Under the pieces are notes generated by a model. The model had not been told where the DNA came from, made no database searches, and was given only the letters and a program-made list of their open reading frames with translations. Positions 26,994 to 53,570 of a DNA stretch of 64,000 nt are shown one piece after another. Location: positions 62,001 to 126,000 of the forward strand of contig NZ_SLVF01000007.1 in NCBI RefSeq assembly GCF_004345365.1. Direction: 5' to 3'. Position numbers and translations under genes: made by a program. This stretch comes from Kribbella sp. VKM Ac-2568 (GTDB lineage Bacteria; Actinomycetota; Actinomycetes; Propionibacteriales; Kribbellaceae). Each line of letters opens with the position of its first letter. The first letter of the stretch is position 1.

Positions 26994-26999
26994 CGATGG

Positions 27000-28837: not shown

Positions 28838-28854
28838 ACAGGCAAGAGTAGGGC

Positions 28855-32932: not shown

Positions 32933-33199
32933 TCACTGGTCGTTCGGCGAGATGTACTCCGGCTTCGGCCACCCCTTGCGGTGGCTGCCCGGGATCCGTT
33001 GCATCAGCACCCGCCGCAGGCCCCAGGGGAGCAGCCGGTAGACCGGCGCGAAGACCTGGCGCCACCAGCGGTCCCTGACGGCGTGCGGACGGGCCGGCGG
33101 ATTCGCGTCGTACTTCGCGGCCATGCGGCGCTGCGCGTCCCGCAGCAACGCGTGCTCGGAGTTCGACCGCAGCCATCGGGAAAAGGTCACGGCAGCCAC
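32933..33199 (-). CDS. Small conserved-looking protein, 88 residues
   Basis: Basic protein (MAAVTFSRWLRSNSEHALL ... RIPGSHRKGWPKPEYISPND) with Arg/Trp-rich helices and a Pro-rich tail. I do not recognise a family. It starts just after the flavoprotein stop; GTG 33199 or GTG 33190 could be used, the latter with GAGGTGG upstream. Its place between the flavoprotein and the DsrE-fold protein suggests a shared role. Confidence 0.6.
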   Translation of the reverse strand: MAAVTFSRWLRSNSEHALLRDAQRRMAAKYDANPPARPHAVRDRWWRQVFAPVYRLLPWGLRRVLMQRIPGSHRKGWPKPEYISPNDQ

Positions 33200-34598: not shown

Positions 34599-35021
34599 TC
34601 AATGCTCGACGGCGATCGCCTCGGTGGTCAGCTCGACGCCGGCGCGCAATGTGTTGGTCACGTAGCAGACGCGCTCGGCAGCCCGGACCAGCTGATCCAG
34701 CTCGGCCTCCGGCACACCGACGCGGGCCTGCACGTGGATCGCACTGAACCGCTGACCGTCGTAGCTGCCGGTCACGTCGACCGACAGGTCGGACAGCTCG
34801 ATCTCCCGCTTGCGAGCCGCATAGCTGAGTGCCATCAGGAAGCAGGAGGCGACCGACGCCAGGAACAGATCGGTCGGTTGCGGCCCCAGATCGGTCCCGC
34901 CGACCCGCACCGGCTCGTCGACCTCGATCGTGAACGACCCTGCTCGCACCGAGCAGTGGTACCCGGATCTCCACTTGCCCGTGACGGTTCGCCCGGCCGC
35001 GACGCGAGCGTCAGTGGTCAT
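34599..35021 (-). CDS. OsmC/Ohr-family peroxiredoxin-like protein
   Basis: 140 residues with the two OsmC cysteines: ASVASCFLMALSYAA and RAAERVCYVTNTL. The family reduces organic hydroperoxides or handles reactive sulfur. ATG 35021 overlaps the stop of the nitrile hydratase activator; ATGs at 35030 and 35039 are alternatives. It is the fourth gene of the nitrile hydratase operon. Confidence 0.88.
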   Translation of the reverse strand: MTTDARVAAGRTVTGKWRSGYHCSVRAGSFTIEVDEPVRVGGTDLGPQPTDLFLASVASCFLMALSYAARKREIELSDLSVDVTGSYDGQRFSAIHVQARVGVPEAELDQLVRAAERVCYVTNTLRAGVELTTEAIAVEH

Positions 35022-35370
35022 GGAGGCCATGCTCGTCATCACGATGGTCATGGCCCGCCGGCCGATGACAGAGAACGTCCGCACGGTCGTCGACGTCCTC
35101 CAGCGAGACGACGCCCCGCTGGAAGAGCAGTGACTCGAGGGCGCCGACCCAGCGGTCGTAGTAGCGATACTCCCCGGGCCCGGACTCGTCCGCGGCGACC
35201 TCGGCGATCAACCCGGTCTGGAAGTCCCGCCACGAGAACAACCCCTGGTCGGCCAGCGCGGCCGCCAGGCCGAACGCCCGGCTCTCCCAGGGCTCGTCGA
35301 AGACCAGCTCGCCGTTCGCGCGAGGCAGCGCCGTGGCGCCGACGGCGTCGAGGGCCTCGGCCCCGGTCAT
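35011..35370 (-). CDS. Nitrile hydratase accessory/activator protein with His-rich tail
   Basis: 119 residues resembling the small beta-subunit-like activators (p14K/NhlE type) that deliver cobalt by subunit exchange: [34 protein letters not shown]. The C-terminal end [14 protein letters not shown] is unusually rich in His/Asp and could bind Co2+. The start overlaps the alpha-subunit stop (ATGA). Gene order beta-alpha-activator is that of cobalt-type nitrile hydratases. Confidence 0.88.
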
Positions 35371-35969
35371 GAGGCGACCTTCACGTCGGCGACGCCCACC
35401 ATGGCATCCCGGCTGACCAGGGCGGTCAGCTCCTCCTCGGACAGGTTCTCACTGCCGGCCGGGCGGCGCGGCAGCACGAAGTACCGGTTCTCCGCACTCG
35501 AGTCCCACACCTTGATCTCGACGGCGCCGTCGACGACGAGGCCCATCTCCGCGAGCAGCGCCCTCGGCTCCCGGACGACCCTGGCGCGATAGGCCGGGTC
35601 CTTGTACCAGTTCGGAGGCAGGCCGAGCACCGGCCACGGGTAGCAGGAACACAGCGTGCAGACCACCACGTTGTGAACCTCGTCGGTGTTCTCGACCACG
35701 ACGATGTGCTCGCCCTGCGGTCCGCCGAAGCCGAGTTCCTTGATGGCGCCGGTGCCGTCGGCGAGCAGGCGGGCGCGGTAGTCCGGGTCCACCCAGGCCT
35801 TGGCGACGACCTTGGCTCCGTTGAGCGGGCCGACGTCGTTCACGTAACGGTTGATGAACCCGTCCAGGACGTCGGTCTTGACCAGGCCTCGCTCGGTCAG
35901 CAGCGCCTCGAGTGCCTCGGCGCGCAGCGCGGCGGGAGGCCGGTCTGCAGTGCGGGAATCGGCGGTCAC
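35367..35969 (-). CDS. nthA: Nitrile hydratase alpha subunit (cobalt type)
   Basis: 200 residues. The metal-binding claw is [14 protein letters not shown] (C104, C107, C109); Thr in the second position indicates non-corrin cobalt, whereas iron enzymes have Ser. [17 protein letters not shown] follows as usual. The enzyme hydrates nitriles to amides. It overlaps the beta-subunit gene by four bases. The separate full-length alpha and beta chains argue against thiocyanate hydrolase, whose beta part is split in two. Confidence 0.96.
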
Positions 35970-36628
35970 AGTGTCTTCTCCAGGTAGCTCTCGAACAGGT
36001 CGATGTAGACGGTCGAGACCTCGGCGTCGGAGCCCCAGAGATCGGTCGACTCGAAGCGGACGGTGTAGACGTGCTGCGCGTCCTCACCGGTGAAGTGAGC
36101 CGTGCTGTCAGGCAGGACGGCCGCCGGCCGCCGGGCATCGACCACACCGGTCCGCCCGCGGACGTAGGCCGGCATCCTGGTGTGGCCTCGCTTGCGGAGA
36201 TCGCGGGCACGCACCTGCTGCCCCACCTCGAAGGCGGGCTCGTCGTCGATCTGGCGTAGCGAACCAGGACCGCCACGCTCGTACGACGGCTTGCACACCT
36301 CGACATCCGCGGGCTCGACGACATCTTCACCACCCAGGCGGCGGGCTCGGGCCTCGACAGCTCCGGGCGCGAGCACACCGCTGTCGACCAGCAACAGCTC
36401 AGCAGCCGCGAGCCACCTTCCGTAGTAGCCGTCGGCGAGGTACTCCACCGGGTGGAGCCGCTCGAGCGCGTGCCGGAACGCGTCGAGGTTGGTCCCCGAT
36501 GCGCCCATCGACGCCAGCCCGAGGGCGAAGGTCCGGGCGTGCCACTGCTCCTCGAACACCGGCTCGTCCGGCTGGATGGCGACCGTGCCCCAGCCGTGGG
36601 TGCCACCCATGTCGTGGATCCCGTCCAT
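35966..36628 (-). CDS. nthB: Nitrile hydratase beta subunit
   Basis: 220 residues beginning [14 protein letters not shown], the hallmark of the beta subunit, with [19 protein letters not shown] and the SH3-like C-terminal domain ([25 protein letters not shown]). The ATG at 36628 follows GGAGGAGG. It is the first gene of the operon nthB-nthA-activator-osmC. The tandem cluster operator begins 30 bp upstream. Confidence 0.96.
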
Positions 36629-36657
36629 CCGCGGCCTCCTCCGGTTGCGCTGCGCAA

Positions 36658-36694
36658 CATCTCCTATCCGATACGGCAAAACACTATGTGAGAC
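36658..36694 (-). promoter_or_regulatory. Cluster operator, site E (tandem 20-bp repeat) with overlapping palindrome
   Basis: On the minus strand GTCTCACATAGTGTTTT (from 36694) and GTATCGGATAGGAGATG (from 36674) are two copies of the cluster motif, 20 bp apart, in the promoter of the nitrile hydratase operon. A 6-3-6 palindrome CTATGTGAGACATAG (36684-36698) overlaps the first copy and could serve the divergent XRE regulator. Confidence 0.75.
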
Positions 36695-36765
36695 ATAGCG
36701 GGCCGTCAACTATCAGAGCTAGGCTGTCGGCTACTCAACGGCGCGTTCCCGACGAAGGAGAGAGC

Positions 36766-37422
36766 ATGTCCCCCTCAGCCACCAGCTCCGGTGGCGTTCG
36801 CGACGACGCAGCGGCCGACCGGCTCGCCGCGGCGCCGCTGCCGGAGACCGAGGTCTCAGCGGTGGTGTCCGGTATCGGTCCACGGCTGCGCTCGCTGCGC
36901 ACGCGACACGGCCTGTCGCTGCAGCAGCTCTCGGACCGCTCGGACGTCTCGCCGGCCGCGATCCACAAGGTGGAGCAGGGCACGATGGTGCCCACCATCA
37001 CCACGCTGCTGAAACTCGCGGCCACCTTCCAGGTCCCGGTGGCCCACTTCATCGGCGAGGTCGAGGCCCCCGACTCGCCGGTCGTCTACACCCCGGCCAA
37101 GCAACGCCGGACCCGCACGGAGGGCGACGGCGACGTCGTGGTGGGATCCATCTCCGCGGAGTCCGGCCCCTTCGACCTCGCGGCGAGCGTCACCGAGATC
37201 GGTGCCGGCGCCCGGTCCGCCGAGGACAACCGGCACCCGGCCGGCGAGTCCCTGGTGCACGTGCAGTCGGGGACGTTGGAGCTCACCGTCGGCCGCCAGG
37301 TCTTCCGGCTGACCGCCGGTGACTCGCTCCACTTCCGCTCGGAGGAGAGCCACTCCTGGCGTAACCCGTCCGGCCGCACCGCCAAGGTGCTGTGGGTGTC
37401 ACTTCCCGAACGCCGCGCCTGA
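36766..37422 (+). CDS. XRE-family regulator with C-terminal cupin
   Basis: 218 residues: HTH_3 domain (GPRLRSLRTRHGLSLQQLSDRSDVSPAAIHKVEQG, about 40-95) and a cupin sensor domain (HPAGESLVHVQSGTLELTVGRQVFRLTAGDSLHFRSEESHSW, about 140-212). Such proteins usually control the adjacent divergent operon in response to a small molecule. The ATG at 36766 follows GAAGGAG. It probably regulates nitrile hydratase through the palindrome at 36684-36698. Its 3' end overlaps the convergent GAPDH-like gene by 24 bp. Confidence 0.9.
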   Translation: MSPSATSSGGVRDDAAADRLAAAPLPETEVSAVVSGIGPRLRSLRTRHGLSLQQLSDRSDVSPAAIHKVEQGTMVPTITTLLKLAATFQVPVAHFIGEVEAPDSPVVYTPAKQRRTRTEGDGDVVVGSISAESGPFDLAASVTEIGAGARSAEDNRHPAGESLVHVQSGTLELTVGRQVFRLTAGDSLHFRSEESHSWRNPSGRTAKVLWVSLPERRA

Positions 37423-38484
37423 GCCGATCAAGGCCGGCTGCGGAACCAGCTCGTTCGCCGGTGGCCTGACGTTGCTGCGGGCGGACACCATCTCGACCAG
37501 GTCGAGGAGCCGGTTGGCGTAACCCCACTCGTTGTCGTACCAGCCGAACAGGCGTACGGCGGTACCGTGCGACTCGATGTCCTGGAGTGAGATCACGCAG
37601 GAACGCGGGTCGCCGAGGATGTCCGACGACACCAACGGCACGTCGGTGACGCCGACGATGCCGGACCAGCGGTCCGAGCGGGCTGCCTCGATGAAGGCCT
37701 CGCGCACCTGCTCGGCCGTGGCGCGCTCCCGGAGCATGGCCACCACGTTGCTCAGGGACCCGTCGGGAACCGGAACGCGCACCGCGACGCTGTGGACCCG
37801 GTCCTTCAGCTGCGGGAGCACCAGCGCCAGGGCGCGGTCCGCCCCGGTGCCCGTCGGCACGATGTTCTGGCCCGCGGCCCGCGAGCGCCGCAGGTCGTGG
37901 TGCGGCAGGTCGAGGAGCTGCTGGTCGTTGGTGAAGGCGTGCACGGTGTCGACCCAGCCGCCGTCGACCCCGAAAGCCTCGTCGAGGATGGCGAACATCG
38001 GCGCCACGCAGTTGGTCGTGCAGGAGGCGTTGGAGATGATCCGGTGGACGGCCGGGTCGAGGGCCGCCTCGTTGACCCCGACGCAGATCGTCACCTCGGC
38101 CGAGTCGGTCGGCGTGGAGATGATCACCCGCTTGGCGCCGGCCAGGAGATGACCCGCGGCCCGTTCCCGGGTGGTGTACTGGCCGCTGCACTCGGCGACG
38201 ACGTCGACTCCGAGGGCGGACCACGGCAGGTTCGCCGGATGGTTCGACCGCAGTACCTGGATCCGCCGCTCCCCCACCCGCAGCTCGTCGCCGGCCACCT
38301 CGATGGGCACGCCCAGCCGGCCGTGCACCGAGTCGTACTCCAGCAGGTAGGCCAGCGTCGAAGCAGGCGTCAGGTCGTGGACCGCGACGACGTCGACCGC
38401 CGACTCGCGGGCGAGGATGGCGCGGAGGAAGGCCCGTCCGATCCTGCCGAGGCCGTTGATCGCGATGCGGGGCGCGTCGGTCAT
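37399..38484 (-). CDS. Glyceraldehyde-3-phosphate dehydrogenase paralogue
   Basis: 361 residues with GRIGRAFLRA, catalytic [16 protein letters not shown] and [11 protein letters not shown], so active-site Cys and His are present. It differs from the CBB-linked GAPDH at 58.4 kb: VPTGTGADRA replaces the usual [10 protein letters not shown], the coenzyme region reads AVHDLTP, and there is a C-terminal extension. It could be a GAPDH with different coenzyme use, an erythrose-4-phosphate dehydrogenase, or act on another phospho-aldehyde. It follows the lyase genes on the same strand. Confidence 0.88.
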   Translation of the reverse strand: MTDAPRIAINGLGRIGRAFLRAILARESAVDVVAVHDLTPASTLAYLLEYDSVHGRLGVPIEVAGDELRVGERRIQVLRSNHPANLPWSALGVDVVAECSGQYTTRERAAGHLLAGAKRVIISTPTDSAEVTICVGVNEAALDPAVHRIISNASCTTNCVAPMFAILDEAFGVDGGWVDTVHAFTNDQQLLDLPHHDLRRSRAAGQNIVPTGTGADRALALVLPQLKDRVHSVAVRVPVPDGSLSNVVAMLRERATAEQVREAFIEAARSDRWSGIVGVTDVPLVSSDILGDPRSCVISLQDIESHGTAVRLFGWYDNEWGYANRLLDLVEMVSARSNVRPPANELVPQPALIGSGAAFGK

Positions 38485-38939: not shown

Positions 38940-40454
38940 TCAGCGATGCTGGTCCCCCGCGACCTGCTCGGCCTCGGCGATCAGCCGCGCCTCCGCCGCG
39001 GCGTACTTCTCGAGCTCTCGCTTCGCCCGGTAGCCCAGGTCCACGGCCTTCGCGAGGTACTCCTCGGTCATGGCATCGACCGCCTCGGGTGCCGCCCCAC
39101 CGAGGGCGCTCCGCGTCGCGACGATGGCACGGGGGTCGAGGACGGCTCTGACCTCGTCGGCTTCCAGCTCCAGCGATCGCCCGATCACGCGCTGGGCGGC
39201 GACGTCGAGATCCTCCGGGCTGATGTCCACGCCGCGGATCCCGCGCCTGCTCGCAGCGCCCACCACCTCCCCGACGATCAGGTACGCCGCCCGGTAGTCG
39301 ACCCCGCAGCGGAGCATGACGAACTCCGCCAGGTCCGTGGCCTGCGTGAAGCCCTCCTCCAGCCGTTCCCACATGCGACTCTCGTTGACCGTCAGCGTGT
39401 CGACCACCCCCTCCATCAGCGCGGTGATCCGGGTGGCGAACTCGACCGCCCGGGGAATCTCGCCGTACGCGAAGATCAGGTTGTCGCTGCGGGCCGAAGG
39501 GCTCTTCACCACGGCCAGGAAGCCGGTGAGCCGTCCGATCAGGACTCCCCCGGCGCCGCGGACGATCGACAGCGCATAGGGATTGCGCTTCTGCGGCATC
39601 AGCACCGAGGCGCGCGTGTACGGGCCGGCCAGGTCGACGTAGTCGAACTCCTGGCTGGACCAGATCTCGAGGTCCTCCGCGAGCTTCGACTGGTTCGACA
39701 GCAGGCTGACACCGGTGGCAAGGACGTCGATGAAGGTGTCGGTCTGCCACATCGCGTCGCGGGTGTGGGTGATGACATCGTCGAAGCCCAGCAGGTCCGC
39801 GATCACCCGGCGGTCGTCGAGCAACCGGCTGCCGTTGACACACCCCGCGCCACCCGGGCTGCTGTTCAGCTGTGCGAGCGCTGCCACCAGCCGCTCACAG
39901 TCGCGGATCGCCGGCGGCACGAAGCCGAGCAGGTAGTGCCCGAACGTCGACGGTTGCGCCTGCTGGAGATAGGTCTGGTCCGGCATGAAGACCTCGCGGT
40001 ACCGCGCTGCCGTGCGAGACGAGGTGGCCGCGAACTCGGCGGCGCCCGCGGCGAGCTCGGCGGTGAGCCCGCGGAGCAGGATGCGCAGCGCGACCCGCGC
40101 CGCCTCGCGCCGCGGCCGGCCGGCGTGCAACCAGCCGGCGTCGTCACCGATCGTGGCGACGAAGTGCCGCTCGCGCGAGTTGTAGGGCTCGCCGTACGCC
40201 GCGTCGTACGGGAAGTCCTCGGGCCTGGTCCGATACGCCTCCAGGAGTACGCCGAGCAGTGCGGCAGCCGCTCGCTCGGGGATGATCCGGCGGTGGCGCA
40301 GATCGAGCACGTGCGCGATGTCGGCGAGGTTGAGGCCGTGGTGGAGCAGCGGGGCGTCCGCGATCTCCCAGGCGAACCCAGCGTCGATGAGCTGCTGGGC
40401 CGGCCGATCCTTGGACGGGCCCTCGACCCGGCGTCCCGCGTTGACCGCTGTCAT
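38940..40454 (-). CDS. Aspartase/fumarase-superfamily lyase, argininosuccinate-lyase-like
   Basis: 504 residues. The superfamily signature appears as RASVLMPQKRNPYALSI, with HTRDAMWQTDTFIDVL and QQAQPSTFGHYLLG typical of the argininosuccinate lyase branch. Such enzymes eliminate across a C-N, C-O or similar bond through a carbanion. No arginine-biosynthesis neighbour is present, and it is coupled (ATGA) to the PLP gene in the ComA-type operon. A step in coenzyme M synthesis, such as phosphate elimination from phosphosulfolactate, is therefore more likely than arginine synthesis. Confidence 0.88.
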   Translation of the reverse strand: MTAVNAGRRVEGPSKDRPAQQLIDAGFAWEIADAPLLHHGLNLADIAHVLDLRHRRIIPERAAAALLGVLLEAYRTRPEDFPYDAAYGEPYNSRERHFVATIGDDAGWLHAGRPRREAARVALRILLRGLTAELAAGAAEFAATSSRTAARYREVFMPDQTYLQQAQPSTFGHYLLGFVPPAIRDCERLVAALAQLNSSPGGAGCVNGSRLLDDRRVIADLLGFDDVITHTRDAMWQTDTFIDVLATGVSLLSNQSKLAEDLEIWSSQEFDYVDLAGPYTRASVLMPQKRNPYALSIVRGAGGVLIGRLTGFLAVVKSPSARSDNLIFAYGEIPRAVEFATRITALMEGVVDTLTVNESRMWERLEEGFTQATDLAEFVMLRCGVDYRAAYLIVGEVVGAASRRGIRGVDISPEDLDVAAQRVIGRSLELEADEVRAVLDPRAIVATRSALGGAAPEAVDAMTEEYLAKAVDLGYRAKRELEKYAAAEARLIAEAEQVAGDQHR

Positions 40455-41449
40455 GGGTTTGCCTCCGCGCCGACGGCCCCGGATCCAATCCCAGCCTCGG
40501 CGAACGTAGTGATGAGTGTGTCGGCGGCCGCGAGTGCGCCGCCGGTGCTCCAGTAGACGGTCGGCTCCCGCAACTCGGCGCGGTGGTCGGCCAGCCAAAG
40601 GAGGGCCTTCACGTTGTAGACCGGGTCTGCGACGAGACCGCTGTGCCGGAGTGCGTCCCGGGTCAACCGATCGGCCTCCGGACCGGGACCGCCGGCCCTG
40701 CCGTCGACCAGCCGCCAGCGGGTCGACGGTTCGCCGCCGCCTAGCAGTCGTGCGGTCTCCAGGGCGCAGGCGGCGATGCGGGGCTCGACTTCATCCGGAG
40801 GACGCGAGACAGAGACTCCGACGATGTCGACCCGGTCGGCGTGACCGTTGGCACCGAGGCCCGCGAGCAGCCCGGCAATGCTGCCGCCTGACCCGACGGG
40901 GAGGACGACCGTGGCCCGGGGAAGGTTGCGCTCGGCAAGCTGCGAGACCAGCTCGGCCGCTGCTCCGGCAAAGCCACAGGCGCCCACCGGCGTAGCACCG
41001 CCCCGCGGTACGGCGTACGCGAGGGCTCCCTCTGCGTTCAGACGTTCGACGAGCTCGCGGGCGCCGATCTCCATGCTCTGGCGGTCGTCGGAGCCGGTGA
41101 AGACCACCTCCGCGCCGGCCCTTCTCGACACCTCGAGCGCCGCGGCGCCACGCGGCGAGCCGTAGCAGACCTGTCTGATCGCCACTCCCTTCGCGGCGGC
41201 CGCGACGGCCAGCAGGGCGGCGAAGTTGGAACCCGGTCCACCGGCGACGACGAGCGTGTCTGAACCGCGCTCCAGGGCGTCGCCAAGCACGAACTCGACG
41301 GTCCGGACCTTGTTGCCGCCCCACGCGAAACCGGTGAGGTCGTCCCGTTTGAGCAGTAGGTCCTGCAGGCCCGGAGCGAGGTCGGCGACGTACTGCATCG
41401 GAGTGGGGAACAGTCCGAGCTGTACCCGCGGGAGGTGGTCTAGCGCCAT
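40451..41449 (-). CDS. PLP-dependent enzyme, D-cysteine desulfhydrase/ACC deaminase family
   Basis: 332-residue fold-type-II PLP enzyme: LLLKRDDLTGFAWGGNKVR with Schiff-base lysine K47, GGPGSNFAALLAVAAAA, and phosphate loop VLPVGSGGSIAGLLAGL. The family includes D-cysteine desulfhydrase, ACC deaminase and cysteate sulfo-lyase. The published bacterial CoM pathway uses a PLP enzyme in the thiolation step, and this gene is translationally coupled on both sides to lyase genes of the ComA-type operon. Confidence 0.88.
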   Translation of the reverse strand: MALDHLPRVQLGLFPTPMQYVADLAPGLQDLLLKRDDLTGFAWGGNKVRTVEFVLGDALERGSDTLVVAGGPGSNFAALLAVAAAAKGVAIRQVCYGSPRGAAALEVSRRAGAEVVFTGSDDRQSMEIGARELVERLNAEGALAYAVPRGGATPVGACGFAGAAAELVSQLAERNLPRATVVLPVGSGGSIAGLLAGLGANGHADRVDIVGVSVSRPPDEVEPRIAACALETARLLGGGEPSTRWRLVDGRAGGPGPEADRLTRDALRHSGLVADPVYNVKALLWLADHRAELREPTVYWSTGGALAAADTLITTFAEAGIGSGAVGAEANP

Positions 41450-42789
41450 GAGGTGCTCTCTTTCTCGCGCCGGCGGCGGGCGCGGGCGACCACCTCGTCA
41501 GCCATCGCGGCGGCCGCTCCGGTGTGCACGCGGTCCAGCTCGGCGAACTCGTCGGCTTCGACACGACCCTCGAGCACCGCCTTCAGGGTTCGGCCGGACT
41601 CGCTTGCCTCGCGGTAGGCCTCGTGGAGGGCGGCCTGAGCATGGTGCTTGCCGAGCCGTTCGGACATCGCACTCAGCAGGCGCTCCGACGTGGCCGAGCC
41701 GGTCGCCTCGAGGTTGGCACGCATCCTCGTCGGGTCGACCTCGAGAGAACTGATCAGCGAACGCGTCATGCCGGTCGCGGTAAGGGCGTAGTGGCACAGC
41801 TCCGGCAGCACGACCCATTCCGTCTTCCACGATCGGCCGTCTCGCTCATGCTCGCCGACCATGGTGTCGTTGAGGACGCCGGACAGGGAACGGACCAGCC
41901 GCGCGAGGGTGACGACCTGCTCACTCACCTCGGGGTTGCGCTTGTGGGGCATGGAGATGCTGCCGACCGTGGCCGCCGAGGTGGGCTCGCGGAGCTCACC
42001 GAGCTCTGCGCGCGCGAGCACGTAGACCTCGTTCGCGATCCGCGCCGCCGACGTCGTCAGGCTCGCCACCACCTGTGCGAACTCGGCGAGCCGGTCCCGT
42101 GTGGTCAACCAGGAGATCGCGGGTTCGGCGAGCCCCAGCCGCCGGCAGTACGCCGTCCGCAGGGGCATGGCCCTCGAGCCGAAGAAACCCAGTACTCCGA
42201 CGGCGCCACCGAGCTGCCCGACCAGCCAGCGGTCGCGGCCCGAACGGAGGCGTTCGAGGTTGCGTCCGGTCTCGTCCGCCCAGGTCGCCGCCTTGAATCC
42301 GAAGGTGATCGGTGCGCCGGGCTGACCGTGCGTACGTCCCACCATCGCCGTCTCGCGATGCGTGGAGGCCAGGGCGAGCAGCTCCGCCTCGATCGCCCAC
42401 AGGTCCCGCCACAGCAGGTCCGCCACGGCCCCGATTTCCAGCACCTGAGCGGTGTCGGAGATGTCTTGGACGGTCGTGCCGTAGTACACGTGCTCGGCGG
42501 CGTCGGCCGGCAGCAGGGTGCGCAGTACCTGGATCATCCCCAGGGTCGAGTGCGACGTGGCGCGGGTGCTCTCGCCGATCGCGGCGACGTCCAGCTCACG
42601 GTCGCGCAGTCCCGCGATGGCAGCGGCGGAGCGGGCCGGAATGATCCCGACCTCGGCCTGGGCCTGCGCCAGCGCGATGACCACCTCGAGCCAGCGCCTG
42701 ACCCGCGACGGCTCGGCGAAGATCGCGTGGCTCTCCGGCGTGCTCCACTGGTGGCCGAAGATCTCGGAGTCGATCAGATGTGCGTCCAC
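41440..42789 (-). CDS. Aspartase/fumarase-superfamily lyase, adenylosuccinate-lyase/PcaB-like
   Basis: 449 residues: GRTHGQPGAPITFGFKAATWADE, GSISMPHKRNPEVSEQV (superfamily signature with the catalytic Ser loop) and YYGTTVQDISDTAQVL. It groups by eye with adenylosuccinate lyase and carboxymuconate cycloisomerase, but the context is neither purine nor protocatechuate metabolism. The GTG at 42789 overlaps the upstream gene by 16 bp, with GGAGGTGAC just before it. Two lyases of this superfamily in one operon suggest two successive eliminations. Confidence 0.88.
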   Translation of the reverse strand: MDAHLIDSEIFGHQWSTPESHAIFAEPSRVRRWLEVVIALAQAQAEVGIIPARSAAAIAGLRDRELDVAAIGESTRATSHSTLGMIQVLRTLLPADAAEHVYYGTTVQDISDTAQVLEIGAVADLLWRDLWAIEAELLALASTHRETAMVGRTHGQPGAPITFGFKAATWADETGRNLERLRSGRDRWLVGQLGGAVGVLGFFGSRAMPLRTAYCRRLGLAEPAISWLTTRDRLAEFAQVVASLTTSAARIANEVYVLARAELGELREPTSAATVGSISMPHKRNPEVSEQVVTLARLVRSLSGVLNDTMVGEHERDGRSWKTEWVVLPELCHYALTATGMTRSLISSLEVDPTRMRANLEATGSATSERLLSAMSERLGKHHAQAALHEAYREASESGRTLKAVLEGRVEADEFAELDRVHTGAAAAMADEVVARARRRREKESTSWR

Positions 42790-43703
42790 GTCACCTCCGA
42801 CGTTTCGACCAGGAGCTCGATCGCGGCCCGTACTTCGGCCAGGGAGGCGCCCCACGGCACCAACCGGGCCGGCCCGTCGGCCTCGATCCCCTCCTGGATC
42901 AGGCAGCAGCGGGTGAGCGTCGGCCGTCCTTCCGAGGCCAGCCACTGCCGGGGGCAGATGTCGACCCGGTCGGGCGTGCTGCCGTAGAACCAGCGATGGA
43001 TCTGGTTGGACCGCTCGCACCCGAGCAGCGTCCACTCGCGCTCGGGCGGGCGCTCGTCCAGGAAGGAGACCTTGCTGCCGGGGAAGTCCATCCCGGAGCC
43101 GCGACACGGGATCAGCAACTCGGCCGGCTGCTCGTCGTACTGGTCGGCGAGGAGGTCACGGCTGTCGACGATGTCGGGGACGACGACGACCGGCGGCAGG
43201 TCCTCCGCTGCGCTGAGCACCCGCTGGACCTGGTCGAGCAGTTTGGGCGGCCCGGGTGGATAGACGTCGACCAGCCGGATCCGCAGCGGGGCGGGGTTGA
43301 GGATGAAGCTCACGTGGGAGTACAGGCCTTCGACGATGACGCACCGGGCGCCGGAGCGCTCGGCCGCGGCGGCAAGCTGCGAGGGCACCGCGGTGTCGAG
43401 AGACTCGTCCACGACGAGGGCACAGTCCTCCGGCCCGGCGAGCACTCGCGCGGACCGGGTCATGGTGAACAGCTCGGTCGTCGGGAGCCGGTCCACCTCG
43501 ACCAACGCCGCCCTGCTCCCCTGACGAGCGACCACGAACCGGGTCCGGAAGTACACCTCACGGCCGGTGAAGTGCTCGGCCAGCCAGTCCGGGTCGAGGC
43601 TCGGGACCGAGGCCACGGCGACCTGGCGGTAGCGCGAGGGCACTACGTTCGGCGCCAGCGGATCCGTGGCCCGGTCGGCGGCACGTGCCGGCTCAGCGAG
43701 CAC
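42774..43703 (-). CDS. Uncharacterised protein (possibly DUF7714), second gene of the ComA-type operon
   Basis: 309 residues beginning MLAEPARAADRATD. The core reads AEHFTGREVYFRTRFVVARQG...ALVEVDRLPT, then CVIVEGLYSHVSFILNP and LIRLVDVYPPGPPKLLDQV-like IRLVDVYPPGPPKLLDQV. It may belong to the actinobacterial DUF7714 group, from memory only. No catalytic motif is recognised. The GTG start overlaps the ComA-like stop by 11 bases, so it is surely expressed with it and may supply one of the five CoM-type steps or handle an intermediate. Confidence 0.8.
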   Translation of the reverse strand: MLAEPARAADRATDPLAPNVVPSRYRQVAVASVPSLDPDWLAEHFTGREVYFRTRFVVARQGSRAALVEVDRLPTTELFTMTRSARVLAGPEDCALVVDESLDTAVPSQLAAAAERSGARCVIVEGLYSHVSFILNPAPLRIRLVDVYPPGPPKLLDQVQRVLSAAEDLPPVVVVPDIVDSRDLLADQYDEQPAELLIPCRGSGMDFPGSKVSFLDERPPEREWTLLGCERSNQIHRWFYGSTPDRVDICPRQWLASEGRPTLTRCCLIQEGIEADGPARLVPWGASLAEVRAAIELLVETSEVTWTHI

Positions 43704-44487
43704 GGACCGGCTCCCCGATCTCGATCCCCAGCCCGATGGTGTCCGAGCGCAGGCCGAGGCGGAGCGTCTCCAGTCCCATCACGTCCTCGAGCGCGACGTT
43801 CCCGAGGTTCACCCCTGGTCCGAGCCGGCGCAGCAAGTGCGCCTGCTGCGACCGTTGCGGAGCCTCGTAGATGATCCTGCCGGCCGCGCCGGAAGACGCC
43901 AGCTCGTCGAGCAGGGATTCCCGGACCGAGCCGTCCGCGTCGTACAGGCCGACGGTGCCGCTCTCCCGTCCCTCCGCCACGATCCAGGTCGCGCCGGCGT
44001 CCAGGTCGCCCTGCAGCTCGGCGATCCAGTCGACCGCCGAGACGAGTTCGAGCGGATCCTTGCTGCCGACCTCGGCGAAGACCTCGAACCCGAGCGACCT
44101 CGCCAGCTGGATGAGCTCGCGCTTCTCGGTCGGCGGCAGCTCCGTGGCGCCGCGGGACACCTCGACGCACTCGAAGCCGGCCCAGGTCGCGAAGTCGAAG
44201 AACTCCGCCACCCGGTCCTGGAGCCAGGCGATCTCGAGCAGCGTGCCGCCGGTGCACGGCTTGACCTGATGGTCACGGAGCAGGCGGATCTTCTGCGCGA
44301 GCGCGGGCTCGACGTACGCCGTACCCCAGCCCAGCTTCCAGACGTCGATCCAGCCGGAGTAGGCCTTCAGCACCGACCGCACCGGGTCGAGGGAATACCC
44401 TTTGTCCAACACATGGGTGATGCCGGCGGATCGTGGCTTGGCGGGCCGTTCCGGCACCGTGAGGAAGCTGGGAGGTGCCGCGTCCAT
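43693..44487 (-). CDS. Phosphosulfolactate synthase (ComA/XcbB family)
   Basis: 264-residue TIM barrel aligning well with archaeal ComA: GITHVLDKG, DVWKLGWGTAYV, GGTLLEIAW, GFECVEVSRGATELP, GFEVFAEVGSKD, GATWIVAEGRESG, RIIYEAPQRSQQ, VNLGNVALEDVMGLETLRLGLRSDT. ComA adds sulfite to phosphoenolpyruvate to give phosphosulfolactate, the first step of coenzyme M synthesis in methanogens and in bacteria such as Xanthobacter. The ATG at 44487 follows AAAGGAA. It heads a five-gene operon with overlapping ends, divergent from the SARP regulator across the tandem operator. Confidence 0.92.
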   Translation of the reverse strand: MDAAPPSFLTVPERPAKPRSAGITHVLDKGYSLDPVRSVLKAYSGWIDVWKLGWGTAYVEPALAQKIRLLRDHQVKPCTGGTLLEIAWLQDRVAEFFDFATWAGFECVEVSRGATELPPTEKRELIQLARSLGFEVFAEVGSKDPLELVSAVDWIAELQGDLDAGATWIVAEGRESGTVGLYDADGSVRESLLDELASSGAAGRIIYEAPQRSQQAHLLRRLGPGVNLGNVALEDVMGLETLRLGLRSDTIGLGIEIGEPVRAR

Positions 44488-44532: not shown

Positions 44533-44569
44533 CTCTACGATAGGTGACGATTCTACACTATAGGAGATG
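44533..44569 (+). promoter_or_regulatory. Cluster operator, site D (tandem 20-bp repeat)
   Basis: CTCTACGATAGGTGACG (44533) and CTACACTATAGGAGATG (44553) are two copies of the cluster motif exactly 20 bp apart, between the ComA-type operon and the SARP regulator. The ATAGGAGATG end is identical to the one at site E. Confidence 0.75.
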
Positions 44570-44605
44570 GCCGAAGTAATTCCTGGAGAGGAGCGGTGTC
44601 TCACG

Positions 44606-47600
44606 ATGTCCACCAGTCCTCCGCCCTCGACGGTGTTCGTCCTCGGCGGTCTGCGCGTCACCGACGCGCAGGGTCATCCGCTCGGCCCCGTTCCCGCGGG
44701 CAGGGCGGGCATCCTGCTGCGCAGGCTCGTCGCCGGCGGCGGCGCCGTCGTCGAGACGGACGCACTGATGGATGCGTTGTGGGACGACGACGCCCCGGCG
44801 ACGGCGGATCGCGTGATCGCCTCGCTGGTCAGCCGGGTGAGACGGGCCATCGGATCCGACGTCATCACCGGTTCGGTGTCCACCGGCTACCGCTTCAACG
44901 CGGGCCGGACCTGGACGAGTGACCTCGCCCAACTGGAGGAACTGACCAAGTCGGCGCAGGCGCGAGCCGCGCTGAGCCCGGCCGTGACGGTGACCGCGGC
45001 GCGGCGCGCCTTCGCGCTGCTGGCCGGCGGCAACCCGCAACTGCCTCCCGCGTTCGCCCAGCACAGCTGGGCCGAGGAACAGCAACGTCATGTCGACGCA
45101 CTCACCCGTCGCCTGAACCGCGCGCGGTGGGATGCCGAGGCTCGCCTCGGCATGTGGAGCGACATCGCGAGCCAGGCCGAGGCGGTTCTCCGGCACATCC
45201 CGCACGACGAGCTGGCGGGCTGCGCGCTGATGGACGCGTACTGGCATCTCGGCGACCGGGTGGCCGCTCTGCGTGTGTACGAAGAGCTCCGGCTGCAGCT
45301 CGGCAACGAGCTCGACGTCGAGCCGAGCCCGCAGAGCGACGCCCTGTTCAGCGCGATCGTGAGCGGGGCCGAACCAGGACCGGTGTCGGTTCCCGGTCCG
45401 GCCGCGACCGGGACCTCCGAGCTGATCGGCCGGGCGGAGGATTTCACCTCGATCGTCGGCCGCTGGCACGATGCCGCCGCTGGTCACGCCGGCTCGGTGG
45501 TGATCACGGGAACCCCCGGCTCCGGGCGCTCGTCGCTCGCCCAGGCTCTCGCCGACAACGCCGACGGCAGTGGCGCCCGGGCGATCCGGGTCGACTGCTT
45601 CGAGGGCGAGCGCTCCTCCCCGCTCCAGCCGCTCGTCACCGTGCTGAGCCGGATCCTGCTGTCGACCGCGCCCGAAGACCTGCCGGCTCTGCTCGGGTCC
45701 TGGACGGACACGGCGGTCGAGCTGGTGCCCGACCTGCGTGATGTCGTCGGTACGCCCGACTACCAGCGGGCAAGCCCGGAGATCGAACACCGGCGCGTGC
45801 TCAACACCATGCGCCACGTCCTCGCGACCGCGGCCGAGGAGCAACCGCTGCTGCTCTTCTTCGACGACCTGCACCTGGCCGGCACCGCCACCGTCGAGGC
45901 GCTCCAGTGGCTCCTCCACTCCTTCGGCGAGGTGCCGCTCCTGGTGGTCGCCACGGTGCCGTCCGACCGCTTGGACGCGGAACTGGGCTCCCTGGCCGAC
46001 AGCAGCCTGCTGGTCGAGCTCGGTTCGCTGACCGAGTCGGAGGTCGCCCAGCTGGCGGCCCAGGCCCGAGTCCCCGACGAGGCGGCCTTCGTCTGGGAGC
46101 TGACCCAGGGCCGGCTCATGTTCGTGGTCGAGGTGCTCGCGGCGCTGCGCCGCGGGGAGGACCGCTCGGACATTCCCGGCACGCTGAGATCGATGGTCCT
46201 CAACCGGGTACGCCGCAGCGGCCGCGGGGTCGAGGACCTGCTTCAGTCCGCCTCGGTGATCGGTACCGCCTTCGAGCTCGAAACGCTGGAGCGCCTGGTC
46301 GGACGTCCGGCGGTCGACTTCATGCCGGCCGTGCAGCAGGCGATGGCGGCCGGCCTGCTGGCGTCCCGCAACGACCTGTTCGTCTTCTCGCCGCCGATCC
46401 TGGGGCAGACCCTGTACGACAACCTGCCCGGACCGATCCGGGTACTGCGCCACCGGCAACTGGCGGAGATCTTCTCGGCGAGGCCGGAGCTGCGGGCACT
46501 CCACCAGGAGCGCTCCGGGCTGACACCGGCCGCGGCCAGGTCGTGGTACGAGGCGGCCGTGCTGGCCCGTCGCTCGTTCGCGAACGCCGATGCCGTTCGG
46601 CTGTTCTCCTCCGCCCTCGACTGCGCCCGGAAGGCAGCCGACCAGGAGCTGGAAGGCCTGGCCCTGATCGGCCGGGGTGCTGCTCACGAGGAGCTCGGCC
46701 AGTTCGACCTGGCGACCGACGACCATCAGGAGGCGGAGTCCCTCGCGGTCGCGACCGGGCAGCATTCGCTCCGGGCGACCGCGGTCGAGCGCCTCGGCTG
46801 GACGGCGTACTACCGCCGCGACGTCGAGGAGGCCGTCGCCCGTGCCGAGGAGGCATCGCGGATGCCCGGCGCGGGGCCGAGCGCCTGGAACCTGCTGGGC
46901 CGGACCAAGCACTGGGCCGGCGACTTCGACGCGGCGTACCGGGCGTACGAACGAGCCCTCGACGGGCTCGGCGACGAGGAGGAAGCGGTCCGGGTCTCGG
47001 TACTCAGCTGCCTCGGCGCCCTGCTGGCCCACGCCGACCGCTACGGCGAGGCGATCGACGTCCTGGACGAGGCGGTCGGGGCCGCGCACCGGATCGGCGC
47101 GTTCCACCCGCTGCTGCGCGGCCTGTTCTTCGCCGGTCTGGCGCGCGCAAACGCCGGAGACCTCTCCGGAGCGTTGACGGCCCTGCAGACGAAGGCCGCG
47201 ATCCTGGAGCGCTACGACGTCTCGTTCTACCGAGCGCGGACGAACACCTCGCTCGCGTGGGTCTGGCGCGAGCTCGGCGAGCCGACCCGGGCCCACGACC
47301 TGTCCGAACTGGCGCTCGAGCAGTCGCGGGAGGTGGACGCGGGCAGTCTGCAGATCGAGCAGGAGCTCCACGCCCTCTGCTCATTGGCCGACTCCGAGCG
47401 TCTGGACGGCCAGCTCGACCGCGCGGCGGAGCGGCTCGAGGTTGCGTCCGAGCTGATCGAGCACTGGCTGCCGTTCAAGTGGCGCGCCGACCTGCGGATC
47501 CGCGAGGTGCGTTCGAGGTTGCGGCTCGAGGATCCCGAGGCCCTGCTCGAGGCTGCGCGGGCGGCCGGCTCGGTCAAGTACCAGGCCCTGGCTCTCCACC

Positions 47601-47782
47601 TGCAGGGCCGTGGTGAGGACGCCGCCGTCCTGGCTCGGCAGACCGGCTCACTGCTGCTCCTGGGCGAGGTGGGCGCACCTGACGAGGCGCGAGATGCCCT
47701 CCGCCGCCTCGAGGCGAGGCTGCCGCGCCAGCTCAGGCCGAACTTCTCGCAGGCGGGACGCCTTCCGGCCGGACGAGGTTGA
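44606..47782 (+). CDS. SARP-type regulator with STAND ATPase and TPR repeats (AfsR-like)
   Basis: 1058 residues: winged-helix DNA-binding domain (about 5-95; VFVLGGLRVTDAQGHPL...YRFNAG), bacterial transcriptional activation domain (about 100-245), ATPase with Walker A GTPGSGRSSLAQ near 300 and Walker B-type LLLFFDDLHLAG near 415, then helical/TPR repeats to the end. SARP domains bind tandem direct repeats, which is the form of the cluster operator. Being encoded in the middle of the cluster, it is the best candidate for its activator. ATG 44606 follows GAGAGGAG. Confidence 0.9.
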   Translation: MSTSPPPSTVFVLGGLRVTDAQGHPLGPVPAGRAGILLRRLVAGGGAVVETDALMDALWDDDAPATADRVIASLVSRVRRAIGSDVITGSVSTGYRFNAGRTWTSDLAQLEELTKSAQARAALSPAVTVTAARRAFALLAGGNPQLPPAFAQHSWAEEQQRHVDALTRRLNRARWDAEARLGMWSDIASQAEAVLRHIPHDELAGCALMDAYWHLGDRVAALRVYEELRLQLGNELDVEPSPQSDALFSAIVSGAEPGPVSVPGPAATGTSELIGRAEDFTSIVGRWHDAAAGHAGSVVITGTPGSGRSSLAQALADNADGSGARAIRVDCFEGERSSPLQPLVTVLSRILLSTAPEDLPALLGSWTDTAVELVPDLRDVVGTPDYQRASPEIEHRRVLNTMRHVLATAAEEQPLLLFFDDLHLAGTATVEALQWLLHSFGEVPLLVVATVPSDRLDAELGSLADSSLLVELGSLTESEVAQLAAQARVPDEAAFVWELTQGRLMFVVEVLAALRRGEDRSDIPGTLRSMVLNRVRRSGRGVEDLLQSASVIGTAFELETLERLVGRPAVDFMPAVQQAMAAGLLASRNDLFVFSPPILGQTLYDNLPGPIRVLRHRQLAEIFSARPELRALHQERSGLTPAAARSWYEAAVLARRSFANADAVRLFSSALDCARKAADQELEGLALIGRGAAHEELGQFDLATDDHQEAESLAVATGQHSLRATAVERLGWTAYYRRDVEEAVARAEEASRMPGAGPSAWNLLGRTKHWAGDFDAAYRAYERALDGLGDEEEAVRVSVLSCLGALLAHADRYGEAIDVLDEAVGAAHRIGAFHPLLRGLFFAGLARANAGDLSGALTALQTKAAILERYDVSFYRARTNTSLAWVWRELGEPTRAHDLSELALEQSREVDAGSLQIEQELHALCSLADSERLDGQLDRAAERLEVASELIEHWLPFKWRADLRIREVRSRLRLEDPEALLEAARAAGSVKYQALALHLQGRGEDAAVLARQTGSLLLLGEVGAPDEARDALRRLEARLPRQLRPNFSQAGRLPAGRG

Positions 47783-48539
47783 CGCTCGCGGCGGTTGCGA
47801 GGCCGATCCCCCACAGGAGCGCGATGCCCGACGAGCCGCCGATGGCCGAGACGGTCGTGACCGCGTGGTCGAACGCCGGGCGGTCGTAGGCGGCCGCGCA
47901 GGCGACCAGGTCGTGCACCGGCGCCACGCTCTGACCTCGGGCAGCCCAGGCCAGGAAGGATCGGCTGAGGTTCGTGGTGGCGGTATCCCGCGCGACGCGC
48001 AGCAGAGTGTCCTCGTCCTCGCCGCGCCACGCGTGCACGAGCAGGAGACCGGCGAGTACGTCGTCGCCGGTGGGCGTCAGACCTCCCCCGCGGCCTTCGA
48101 GCAGCTCGCGCGACGCGACGAGATCGCCGGCCGCCACGGCACGTCGTACCGAGTGCCATCCTCGCGCCAGGTCGGCGGGGACAGCCAGCGACTCGAGCAT
48201 CGATCCGAGTGCCGCCTCGGCGTGCAGCAGGTCCGCGCGAGCGGGCTGCCACGGTGCGAAGAAAGCTGCTTCACCGAGCTCGACCTGCCAATGCGACGAA
48301 CGCAGCCGGGTGCCGTCGCGCCAGACGGCCAACCCCTCGGTGGCGCGAGCGGGCGGCGCGGCCACGATCAGATGGATCGGCCCGGGCGCGACGGCGGGAC
48401 CCGCGATGGCGTAGACCTCGCCGCCCACCTGCACATAACAACCGTGCCGGAAGATCCCGACCACGGTTCCGTGGGCACCGTCGACGTGGGCGGCATCGAC
48501 CCCCGAGCCCACGACGAGAGGCCGCAGGTGCGCGGGCAT
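47733..48539 (-). CDS. DUF2877 protein (AllH-like, oxamate carbamoyltransferase subunit family)
   Basis: 268 residues with the DUF2877 motif GRGGGLTPTGDDVLAGLLL, a C-terminal NLSRSFLAWAARG and a Gly/Ser-rich SAIGGSSGIALLWGIG. In E. coli the related AllH (YlbF) works with AllF (FdrA) and AllG (YlbE) as oxamate carbamoyltransferase. It follows the DUF1116 gene by a few bases and overlaps the convergent SARP gene end by 50 bp. Confidence 0.85.
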   Translation of the reverse strand: MPAHLRPLVVGSGVDAAHVDGAHGTVVGIFRHGCYVQVGGEVYAIAGPAVAPGPIHLIVAAPPARATEGLAVWRDGTRLRSSHWQVELGEAAFFAPWQPARADLLHAEAALGSMLESLAVPADLARGWHSVRRAVAAGDLVASRELLEGRGGGLTPTGDDVLAGLLLVHAWRGEDEDTLLRVARDTATTNLSRSFLAWAARGQSVAPVHDLVACAAAYDRPAFDHAVTTVSAIGGSSGIALLWGIGLATAASVNLVRPEGVPPARSSA

Positions 48540-48543
48540 CGCG

Positions 48544-49959: not shown

Positions 49960-49995
49960 CAGGAAGCCTTTCGACGGTTGATCCGGCCGGGCTGA

Positions 49996-50032
49996 CATCT
50001 CTCGACCGATATGGGCATTTACTATAAGATAC
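49996..50032 (-). promoter_or_regulatory. Cluster operator, site B (tandem 20-bp repeat)
   Basis: On the minus strand GTATCTTATAGTAAATG starts at 50032 and ATATCGGTCGAGAGATG at 50012, 20 bp apart. The second copy has lost the ATAG core but keeps both flanks. It lies between the divergent DUF1116 and Sll0787-family genes and ends only 5 bp before the ATG of the latter. Confidence 0.7.
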
Positions 50033-50037
50033 GCGAC

Positions 50038-52724: not shown

Positions 52725-52777
52725 GAGGGCTCCTTCCGAGCGCGCCACGCTGTCCGCGAGGCGGGCAGGTCAATGAC

Positions 52778-53467: not shown

Positions 53468-53497
53468 GGCACATCTCCGTCGGTCAGGCGGCTCTTT

Positions 53498-53534
53498 CAT
53501 CTACTATACGACACGTCCGTCTGCTATGTTCTAG
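53498..53534 (-). promoter_or_regulatory. Cluster operator, site C (tandem 20-bp repeat)
   Basis: On the minus strand CTAGAACATAGCAGACG starts at 53534 and GTGTCGTATAGTAGATG at 53514, 20 bp apart, between the divergent 229-residue protein gene (start 53467) and carbamate kinase (start 53571). The second copy is one of the best matches to the consensus. Confidence 0.75.
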
Positions 53535-53570
53535 TCGCTGGCGCAGATTCGTCCGACAGTGGAGCTGTTC

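Follow-up and report, generated by a model that had tools for sequence, protein, structure and literature searches.

A five-gene operon of Kribbella sp. VKM Ac-2568 almost certainly belongs to a class of bacterial coenzyme M (CoM) locus separate from the alkene loci. We found it in one contiguous stretch of 64,000 nucleotides, hereafter the window (assembly GCF_004345365.1, contig NZ_SLVF01000007.1, positions 62,001 to 126,000), where it forms the centre of a conserved cluster of about 25 kb (32371–57311). Our best reading is that it represents a second class of such loci, one that serves the assimilation of nitrogen from nitriles or cyanide, and we put the probability that CoM is both made and used in nitrile/cyanide metabolism at about 0.5.

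The operon runs on the minus strand from 44487 to 38940, and its five genes, successively overlapping by 11, 16, 10 and 4 bases, comprise the full bacterial CoM set, i.e., ComA/XcbB, XcbA (DUF7714), XcbD, XcbE and XcbC:

43693–44487, minus strand: xcbB/comA, phosphosulfolactate synthase family (phosphoenolpyruvate (PEP) plus sulfite); ATG start, 264 amino acids; Pfam ComA 260 bits, NCBIfam arch_ComA 255 bits (cut-off 280)
42774–43703, minus strand: xcbA family (DUF7714); GTG start, 309 amino acids; Pfam DUF7714 312 bits, NCBIfam CoM_XcbA_fam 397 bits (cut-off 150)
41440–42789, minus strand: xcbD-like lyase of the aspartase/fumarase superfamily; GTG start, 449 amino acids; Pfam Lyase_1 128 bits, NCBIfam XcbD 530 bits (cut-off 600) versus PurB 250
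40451–41449, minus strand: xcbE-like fold-type-II pyridoxal phosphate (PLP) enzyme with a GGNK lysine motif; ATG start, 332 amino acids; Pfam PALP 105 bits, NCBIfam XcbE 190 bits (cut-off 450), the best among 11 families
38940–40454, minus strand: xcbC-like lyase of the aspartase/fumarase superfamily; ATG start, 504 amino acids; Pfam Lyase_1 101 bits, NCBIfam XcbC 428 bits (cut-off 575) versus ArgH 262

The initial annotation had proposed a CoM operon of five overlapping genes, one of them uncharacterised; coordinates, Pfam and NCBIfam matches bear out all five, the gene set recurs in other bacteria, and the proposal is right at the level of gene families, with the uncharacterised protein now assigned to the XcbA family. 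The best-scoring NCBIfam families of the XcbC, XcbD and XcbE proteins are XcbC, XcbD and XcbE, respectively, and ComA aligns with the solved ComA proteins 1u83 (residues 9–254) and 1qwg (residues 21–252). The operon very probably makes CoM, as its gene families indicate, and would do so by a Xanthobacter-type route from PEP and sulfite via phosphosulfolactate, sulfoacrylate and a cysteine adduct; the later steps of this route we take to be those implied by the NCBIfam names.

XcbA appears to be a specific marker of this gene set. A tblastn search of 72,556 plasmid records with XcbA matched only six, from Xanthobacter Py2, Nocardioides JS614, Mycolicibacterium NBB4 (two records) and Methylocystis iwaonis (two records), and the matches in the first three organisms are the CoM loci of alkene degraders. 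This narrow plasmid distribution, together with the XcbA-family match, argues that the DUF7714 protein is a member of the CoM set. Judged by sequence, the gene set is far beyond chance, DUF7714 being found in 10 of 396 Actinomycetota genomes and the set recurring elsewhere. The predicted XcbA structure is confident (predicted local distance difference test (pLDDT) score of 95); Foldseek returned only matches of low TM score, the best VIA-align Z was 6.4, and no PDB match was convincing, so that the model supports neither a reading of function nor the claim of a new fold. DUF7714/XcbA also scores above its cut-off in the control genome of Methanosarcina acetivorans, a methanogen that makes CoM by another route.

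The GTDB genome collection was scanned with an XcbA alignment, and the best 80 of the 135 relatives obtained were combined with five plasmid loci and the window into 86 loci, which were annotated with reference proteins (eight loci matched in the own genome, L001 and L007–L013, were left out). Within the stretches examined, 45 loci carry alkene/epoxide genes (class 1), 20 including the window carry the new context (class 2) and 21 carry neither; none of the 86 mixes the two contexts. In the XcbA tree, a quick search rooted at its midpoint, the 20 class-2 loci and the truncated locus L022 form one clade of 21 with a Shimodaira–Hasegawa-like approximate likelihood ratio support (SH-aLRT) of 98, the other side holding 65 rows. 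The XcbC and XcbD trees agree, likewise separating class 2 from the alkene type (97 and 98–99, respectively). The complete class-2 cluster, or parts of it, can be found in Nocardioides, Pseudonocardia, Acidimicrobiales, Ruegeria, Nitrobacter, Paraburkholderia and Methylocystis. Among the 21 class-2 loci, XcbA and XcbD are always kept, XcbC is missing only in G018, where the contig ends first, and ComA only in G014; XcbE is present at 16 of the loci, with G018 cut off before it. Two class-1 genomes (G031 and G033) carry a whole or partial class-2 cluster on another contig. In one of them, Pseudonocardia sp. OFTM178 (G031), the class-2 cluster (contig C131; L155, L156) contains ComA and XcbC only and the alkene-type locus L062 contains XcbB, A, D and E, a split which suggests that the two sets may complement each other. 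The class-1 genome G022 has a nitrile hydratase 13 kb from XcbA, with the other class-2 genes absent there.

In four loci of Chloroflexota/Anaerolineales (L038, L058, L063 and L090), xcb genes lie beside URO-D methyltransferases of the MtaA/MtbA type, a corrinoid protein and a RACo-type corrinoid activator. The family searches, made with representatives from L038, L058 and L063, gave matches under the NCBIfam cut-offs, and the gene content suggests a possible third bacterial CoM context, in which methyl groups would be transferred to CoM in a corrinoid-dependent manner.

The two lyases belong with the CoM-pathway enzymes, contrary to the outcome that would place them among true ArgH and PurB and that the initial annotation had listed among its refuting results. 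Quick tree searches were run on 77 rows for XcbC and on 85 and 81 rows for two XcbD trees. In the XcbC tree, the window protein stands among CoM-pathway relatives, class 2 falls on one side (support 97) and six true ArgH proteins fall on a side of their own (100). In the first XcbD tree, class 2 again occupies one side (98) and the six PurB rows do not form one clean side, a split caused by one very long branch (L199). After removal of L199, two paralogues and L085, a row with a PurB-like loop, the remaining five PurB rows share one side (100) and class 2 another (99). We also compared the loop presumably near the catalytic serine. The XcbC pattern R[AST]S..MP is found in 19/19 class-2, 33/39 class-1 and 12/13 context-free rows, versus TGSS.MP in 6/6 ArgH rows; the seven misses, including Xanthobacter L003, fit neither pattern. 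The XcbD pattern [GS]SI[ST]MP is found in 21/21 class-2, 42/42 class-1 and 13/14 context-free rows, and the six PurB rows show GSS.MP (in three, the printed sequence stops before the pattern ends). The own genome carries a true ArgH (576 bits) and PurB (409 bits) at other sites. Trees, loop signatures and these separate housekeeping genes rule out ordinary ArgH and PurB.

The window operon shares its five protein families with the alkene/epoxide CoM loci of Xanthobacter Py2 (the xcb genes of pXAUT01), Nocardioides JS614 and Mycolicibacterium NBB4, and most rows of the two classes have the lyase loop signatures in common; its gene order, ComA-XcbA-XcbD-XcbE-XcbC, matches JS614 and NBB4 and differs from Xanthobacter. 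Unlike those loci, it has no transferase or 2-ketopropyl-CoM carboxylase nearby and is embedded in nitrile and transcarbamoylase genes. It could still be an ordinary alkene/epoxide locus whose epoxyalkane:CoM transferase has been lost or lies elsewhere, given that the known bacterial CoM loci serve alkenes and epoxides, as stated in the accessible part of PMC11507031, and that the own genome has soluble di-iron monooxygenases, which keep an oxygenase alone possible. The Xanthobacter transferase XecA was therefore searched in 25 genomes or records. Relatives of 71–77% identity are present in 4/4 alkene-type controls, whereas the best match in the own genome, named methionine synthase-like, reaches 31% over a partial length; the absence of a visible transferase, already pointed out in the initial annotation, thus extends to the whole genome, in which no real one was found. 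Among the 19 other class-2 genomes, a transferase at control level (76%) occurs only in Methylocystis Sn-Cys, which also possesses a separate alkene locus (L086); G015 shows a full-length match of 38%, G001, G006, G008 and G012 have none, and the rest have only short or low-identity matches. In a locus-level search, a 2-ketopropyl-CoM carboxylase-type protein was found near the operon in 0/20 class-2 loci. On the genome-wide XecA searches we reject an alkene/epoxide locus with a hidden transferase; with the separate clades in the XcbA, XcbC and XcbD trees, an ordinary alkene/epoxide locus in the window is very improbable.

Broken epoxyalkane:CoM transferase-like pieces (51% and 61% identity, with an internal stop) are found on the Methylocystis iwaonis plasmid NZ_AP027143.1 at 203664–204007, about 20 kb from its class-2 CoM locus; they would suit the alkene/epoxide reading.

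Around the operon, the cluster contains the following genes:

32371–32859, minus strand: MSMEG_0572/Sll0783 family (DsrE-like); NCBIfam 212 bits (cut-off 110); Cys115 in 15/15 rows
32933–33199, minus strand: p88, small protein to which the searches assigned no family; conserved beside FADred
33201–34523, minus strand: FADred, CoA-disulfide-reductase-like flavoprotein; NCBIfam CoA-disulfide reductase 240 bits (cut-off 579); Cys42 in 16/16 class-2 rows
34599–35084, minus strand: OsmC-like protein with two conserved cysteines; Pfam OsmC 78 bits; C81 and C140 in 18/18 rows
35011–35370, minus strand: nitrile hydratase accessory protein; NCBIfam nitrile_acc 66 bits (cut-off 46); Pfam NHase_beta_N
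35367–35969, minus strand: nitrile hydratase alpha subunit with a Co-type CTLCSC motif; NCBIfam nitrile_alph 295 bits (cut-off 250)
35966–36709, minus strand: nitrile hydratase beta subunit; NCBIfam nitrile_beta 212 bits (cut-off 152)
36766–37422, plus strand: HTH-cupin regulator (XRE type); Pfam HTH_3 and Cupin_2; homologues in 18/21 class-2 loci including the window
37399–38484, minus strand: GAPDH paralogue; Pfam Gp_dh_N/C; the other stretches scanned gave no match over 120 bits
38502–38861, minus strand: small open reading frame (ORF) without a Pfam, NCBIfam or PADLOC family; several class-2 loci have homologues
44567–47782, plus strand: BTAD-AAA-TPR transcriptional regulator, divergent from the CoM operon; Pfam BTAD, AAA_16, TPR and Trans_reg_C
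47733–48539, minus strand (start chosen): AllH (DUF2877); Pfam AllH 67 bits on the longer frame 47733–49061; no NCBIfam family
48544–49959, minus strand (start chosen): AllG (DUF1116); Pfam AllG 228 bits on the longer frame 48544–50934; no NCBIfam family
50011–51012, plus strand: AIR-synthase-like protein (sll0787 type); NCBIfam 255 bits (cut-off 321)
51037–51570, minus strand: MSMEG_0567 family GNAT acetyltransferase; NCBIfam MSMEG_0567_GNAT 82 bits (cut-off 68); Pfam Acetyltransf_1
51567–52748, minus strand: MSMEG_0568 family radical SAM protein; NCBIfam 367 bits (cut-off 304)
52778–53500, minus strand: u240, conserved protein without a family match; nine-row alignment; model pLDDT 88
53559–54581, plus strand: carbamate kinase (ArcC/AllK); NCBIfam arcC 324 bits (cut-off 358), PRK12352 290 bits (cut-off 266)
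54578–56107, plus strand: AllF (FdrA); NCBIfam FdrA 422 bits (cut-off 433)
56118–57311, plus strand: MSMEG_0565 family glycosyltransferase; NCBIfam 398 bits (cut-off 260)

The gene order of this cluster is nearly identical in Nocardioides soli and Acidimicrobiales, except for GAPDH and, in Nocardioides, the nitrile hydratase, and it is rearranged in Pseudonocardia, Ruegeria, Nitrobacter and Methylocystis; the GAPDH paralogue may not belong to the conserved cluster. FADred goes with 17 of the 21 class-2 loci (in G013 on another contig), and in the four loci without it (G003, G007, G009 and G018) the contigs end near the operon, about 25 kb of the G003 contig lying outside the scan. AllG and AllH score above their Pfam cut-offs, and AllF starts 4.6 kb from AllG. 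The nitrile hydratase is complete, with alpha subunit, beta subunit, accessory protein and the CxLCxC metal motif. Neither p88 nor u240 has a Pfam or NCBIfam family, the u240 model has no PDB match at E≤0.001, and a PADLOC search with XcbA, u240, p88 and the small ORF returned nothing.

Several parts of the cluster resemble known systems. Four of its families, MSMEG_0572 (NitB-like), MSMEG_0568 radical SAM (NitD), MSMEG_0567 GNAT (NitE) and the AIR-synthase-like protein (NitF), recall Nit1C (nitBCDEFGH), known from cyanide assimilation by Pseudomonas, in which the consulted parts of PMC11049912 and PMC1199592 place its action; the class-2 versions of Methylocystis, Nitrobacter and Paraburkholderia likewise go with a nitrilase. 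Unlike Nit1C, the window has a nitrile hydratase in place of the nitrilase, with CoM biosynthesis, AllFGH, carbamate kinase, OsmC and the CoA-disulfide-reductase-like protein added. The AllF/FdrA, AllG, AllH and carbamate kinase of the allantoin pathway of E. coli (AllFGH oxamic transcarbamylase and AllK) are all present in the window cluster; unlike the E. coli genes, they adjoin nitrile hydratase and CoM genes. AllFGH phosphorolyses a carbamoyl compound to carbamoyl phosphate, according to the portion available of PMC11326118. A further likeness is to the synthesis of cyanide ligands by HypE/HypF, for which PMC4506123, in its accessible part, describes thiol-bound carbamoyl and (iso)thiocyanate chemistry, and which also involves a protein of the PurM/AIR-synthase superfamily (50011–51012 of the window gives a weak hypE match of 27 bits); this is an analogy only, as the direction proposed below is opposite and the thiol is a small molecule rather than a protein. 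On balance the cluster would serve a nitrile/cyanide function, a reading we hold by a small margin over its negation.

The hydrolase of the class-2 loci is exchanged between unrelated families, nitrile hydratase being found with 12 of the 21, nitrilase with four and a PF04909 amidohydrolase with four, and none of the three being assigned in one (G009). Nine of the 12 nitrile hydratases lie on the same contig and three on another contig bearing further class-2 genes. The close nitrilases (73–99% identity) go with four class-2 loci of Pseudomonadota. Within the stretches examined, the amidohydrolase is confined to loci without the other two hydrolases (G001, G012, G014, G015, G082, G426 and three loci of family f22; G082, G426 and G207 are further genomes from the phylum sample). 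That unrelated enzymes serve this step argues that the step is probably essential. No Nit6803-type (subfamily 1) nitrilase was seen in the window cluster, the best relative in the own genome being 41% identical (contig C3).

Carbamate kinase follows the hydrolase. The cluster-type enzyme is present in 13/13 genomes with nitrile hydratase (the own genome and 12 others, i.e., those of 11 of the 21 loci and G207; 54–72% identity to that of the window) and in 0/3 nitrilase genomes (Fisher P = 0.0018), with none detected at E≤1e-20 in G003, G004 and G005, nor, at the same threshold, on the Methylocystis iwaonis plasmid (chromosome not searched). It is also present in G009 (70%) and in the amidohydrolase-type G001 (80%), G014 (57%) and G015 (51%). 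The locus of G003 is cut off, and the absence of carbamate kinase together with its place in the tree led us to expect a nitrilase there; a nitrilase of 75% identity indeed lies on the same contig, 38 kb away, with four close or fairly close copies in the genome.

These gene sets led us to a possible mechanism, in which CoM would serve nitrogen acquisition from nitriles or cyanide, not epoxides. The product of nitrile hydratase can feed AllFGH only if its carbamoyl group sits on a heteroatom, and the cluster would make the thiol CoM; by this chemical reasoning we propose CoM-S-CN as the intermediate. The CoM thiol would first capture cyanide as the thiocyanate CoM-S-CN, by way of a CoM disulfide or persulfide on which the CoA-disulfide-reductase-like flavoprotein, OsmC and the DsrE-like protein would act. 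Nitrile hydratase, replaced by nitrilase or amidohydrolase in other bacteria, would then hydrate CoM-S-CN to S-carbamoyl-CoM; an AllFGH-type complex would phosphorolyse the carbamoyl group to carbamoyl phosphate and free CoM; and carbamate kinase would yield ATP, NH3 and CO2. With a nitrilase, ammonia would be set free directly and carbamate kinase would not be needed, matching its absence from the nitrilase genomes. Each chemical step is something we infer, and the CoM-S-CN/S-carbamoyl mechanism is tentative and rather unlikely to be right as drawn; that CoM is the cyanide carrier of an undescribed energy-conserving nitrogen pathway (trapping, hydration, splitting by AllFGH, ATP via carbamate kinase) is unlikely still.

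A number of observations weigh against a nitrile/cyanide role of CoM or its details. The contact of CoM with cyanide is itself one that we infer. The window enzyme scores as an ordinary nitrile hydratase, with Co nitrile hydratases as its best solved relatives, and not as a thiocyanate hydrolase, the model of whose gamma subunit gives 184 bits on the alpha subunit, under the cut-off of 291. XcbC, XcbD and XcbE, whose NCBIfam families are "exception" models with high cut-offs, and ComA all score under the curated cut-offs, XcbA alone being above. G009 has no nitrile hydratase or close nitrilase genome-wide, the amidohydrolase having been sought on its 7.5 kb contig only; on contigs outside the scan, the amidohydrolase-type G015 has one nitrile hydratase and the nitrilase-type G003 has three. 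The amidohydrolase genomes G012 and G082 have only relatives of carbamate kinase on other contigs (43–46%), and G426 has a fragment. As the nitrilase loci form one clade, the carbamate kinase correlation may reflect a single event, and the nitrilase loci W01, G004 and G005 retain AllF and AllG, which the proposed mechanism leaves unexplained. Nor do the cluster nitrile hydratases form one monophyletic family, the cluster label needing six changes on their tree versus 8.5 when shuffled; these labels are blurred, since five of the 20 rows labelled "elsewhere" (L139, L140, L142, L144 and L146) sit with class-2 genes on another contig and a second Ruegeria nitrile hydratase, 12.7 kb from XcbA (the same gene as L133), is labelled "cluster". 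One clade (support 99/98) holds only five nitrile hydratases, from the window, Ruegeria and three Acidimicrobiales. XcbE is missing in a locus-level search from four of the 21 class-2 loci (G002, G006, G014 and G015) and from the locus of G207, and G014 also lacks ComA at its locus; Ruegeria sp. THAF57 is a host of an XcbE-less locus.

The gaps in XcbE leave room for an operon that makes a different sulfonate thiol or a cysteine-sulfonate adduct, used in the same nitrile cluster: XcbE is expected to act on the cysteine adduct, which the NCBIfam name of XcbD implies, and it is the piece most diverged relative to its cut-off. We regard such a product as quite improbable, given that XcbA, XcbD, XcbC and ComA are nearly always kept, that XcbE is retained in most class-2 loci and that the gene set split over two locus types in G031 suggests one shared product.

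Co-occurrence was measured across 396 evenly sampled Actinomycetota genomes, among them the own genome, with FADred counted at E≤1e-100. XcbA is found in 10 genomes, FADred in 12 and both in eight (hypergeometric P = 1.6e-12, treating genomes as independent, which they are not), so that the flavoprotein of the new context accompanies the CoM marker in eight of its 10 genomes. In seven of the eight, the two genes are within 15 kb of each other on a single contig, and in G164 they are on two contigs; G229 shares coordinates with G014 and is probably the same genome. XcbA without FADred occurs in G110 (a 3.4 kb contig) and G293 (partial, 81% complete), and FADred without XcbA in G143 (a 4.4 kb contig) and three genomes of family f22. 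The latter (G118, G183 and G369) count against the reading as well: they lack DUF7714 genome-wide, and their loci (L161–L165) keep FADred, OsmC, AllF, ArcC, DsrE, the radical SAM protein and GNAT, with no CoM genes or nitrile hydratase in the 40, 35 and 20 kb examined, indicating that the transcarbamoylase module does not need CoM everywhere. In G183 the place of those genes is taken by an amidohydrolase, a PLP decarboxylase, an SsuD-like monooxygenase and an aminotransferase, and the other two genomes have ORFs similar to most of these.

That CoM-free clusters retain AllF and ArcC would also suit a cluster acting on N-cyano or ureido compounds, in which nitrile hydratase and AllFGH would act on cyanamides by way of their conversion to ureas and CoM would merely activate or reduce in another step, e.g., that of the radical SAM/AIR-synthase part; the N-carbamoyl compound oxalurate is a substrate of E. 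coli AllFGH in the part of PMC11326118 at hand. This alternative leaves CoM, whose genes lie within the cluster, with no defined role, and the CoM-free version lacks both the CoM genes and nitrile hydratase in the examined stretches; we consider it doubtful, with little weight.

CoM might instead be a general low-molecular-weight redox thiol comparable to mycothiol, reduced by FADred and used by OsmC in defence against peroxides or electrophiles, with the nitrile genes as neighbours in a nitrogen-starvation regulon. The conserved Cys42 of FADred aligns with the active-site cysteine region of the NADH oxidase/CoA-disulfide reductase family, relatives of FADred are named CoA disulfide or persulfide reductases, both OsmC cysteines are invariant, and alkene loci carry a related protein (28% identity), called CoADR in the available text of PMC8727900. 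A redox thiol leaves unexplained, however, why 20 of the 21 class-2 loci have one of three unrelated hydrolases and why carbamate kinase tracks with nitrile hydratase. Class-2 organisms are expected to have other thiols, and we judge this explanation unlikely.

The protein families of the cluster are known, and the system that they form here appears undescribed. Among the open-licence papers listed, titles and the beginnings of abstracts revealed none that connects CoM genes with Nit1C, nitrile hydratase or MSMEG_0572, and a 2024 paper, in the part accessible to us, knows CoM genes only from methanogens and alkene users (PMC11507031). Class-2 loci represent a widespread class of bacterial CoM locus without epoxide enzymes, in some soil, marine and methane-eating bacteria. 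For a cofactor known from methane makers and alkene-eating bacteria, use in nitrile or cyanide metabolism would, if true, be a new job; if CoM acts in nitrogen use from these compounds, the purpose of the cofactor would be redefined and the Nit1C-type genes would gain a chemical frame, and a carrier function would be a third role of CoM beyond archaeal methyl transfer and bacterial epoxide opening.

No Rfam family and no tRNA was found in the 64-kb window. Calvin-cycle genes lie on both flanks of the cluster (22034–31604 and 58398–61423), the RuBisCO large subunit, phosphoribulokinase and FBPase being identified by Pfam and CbbX, aldolase, Rpe, transketolase and GAPDH by reading; RbcL and CbbX also lie near the Paraburkholderia locus (L098). 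Of the autotrophy/nitrile context originally suggested for the operon, the nitrile genes are indeed a conserved part of the cluster, and Calvin genes accompany, among the stretches examined, only this locus and that of Paraburkholderia, so that the suggestion is partly right. Upstream of the Calvin genes, at 17680–20896, a sulfite/nitrite reductase (NIR_SIR) and a rhodanese-domain protein are encoded, a possible link to sulfite or sulfane sulfur.

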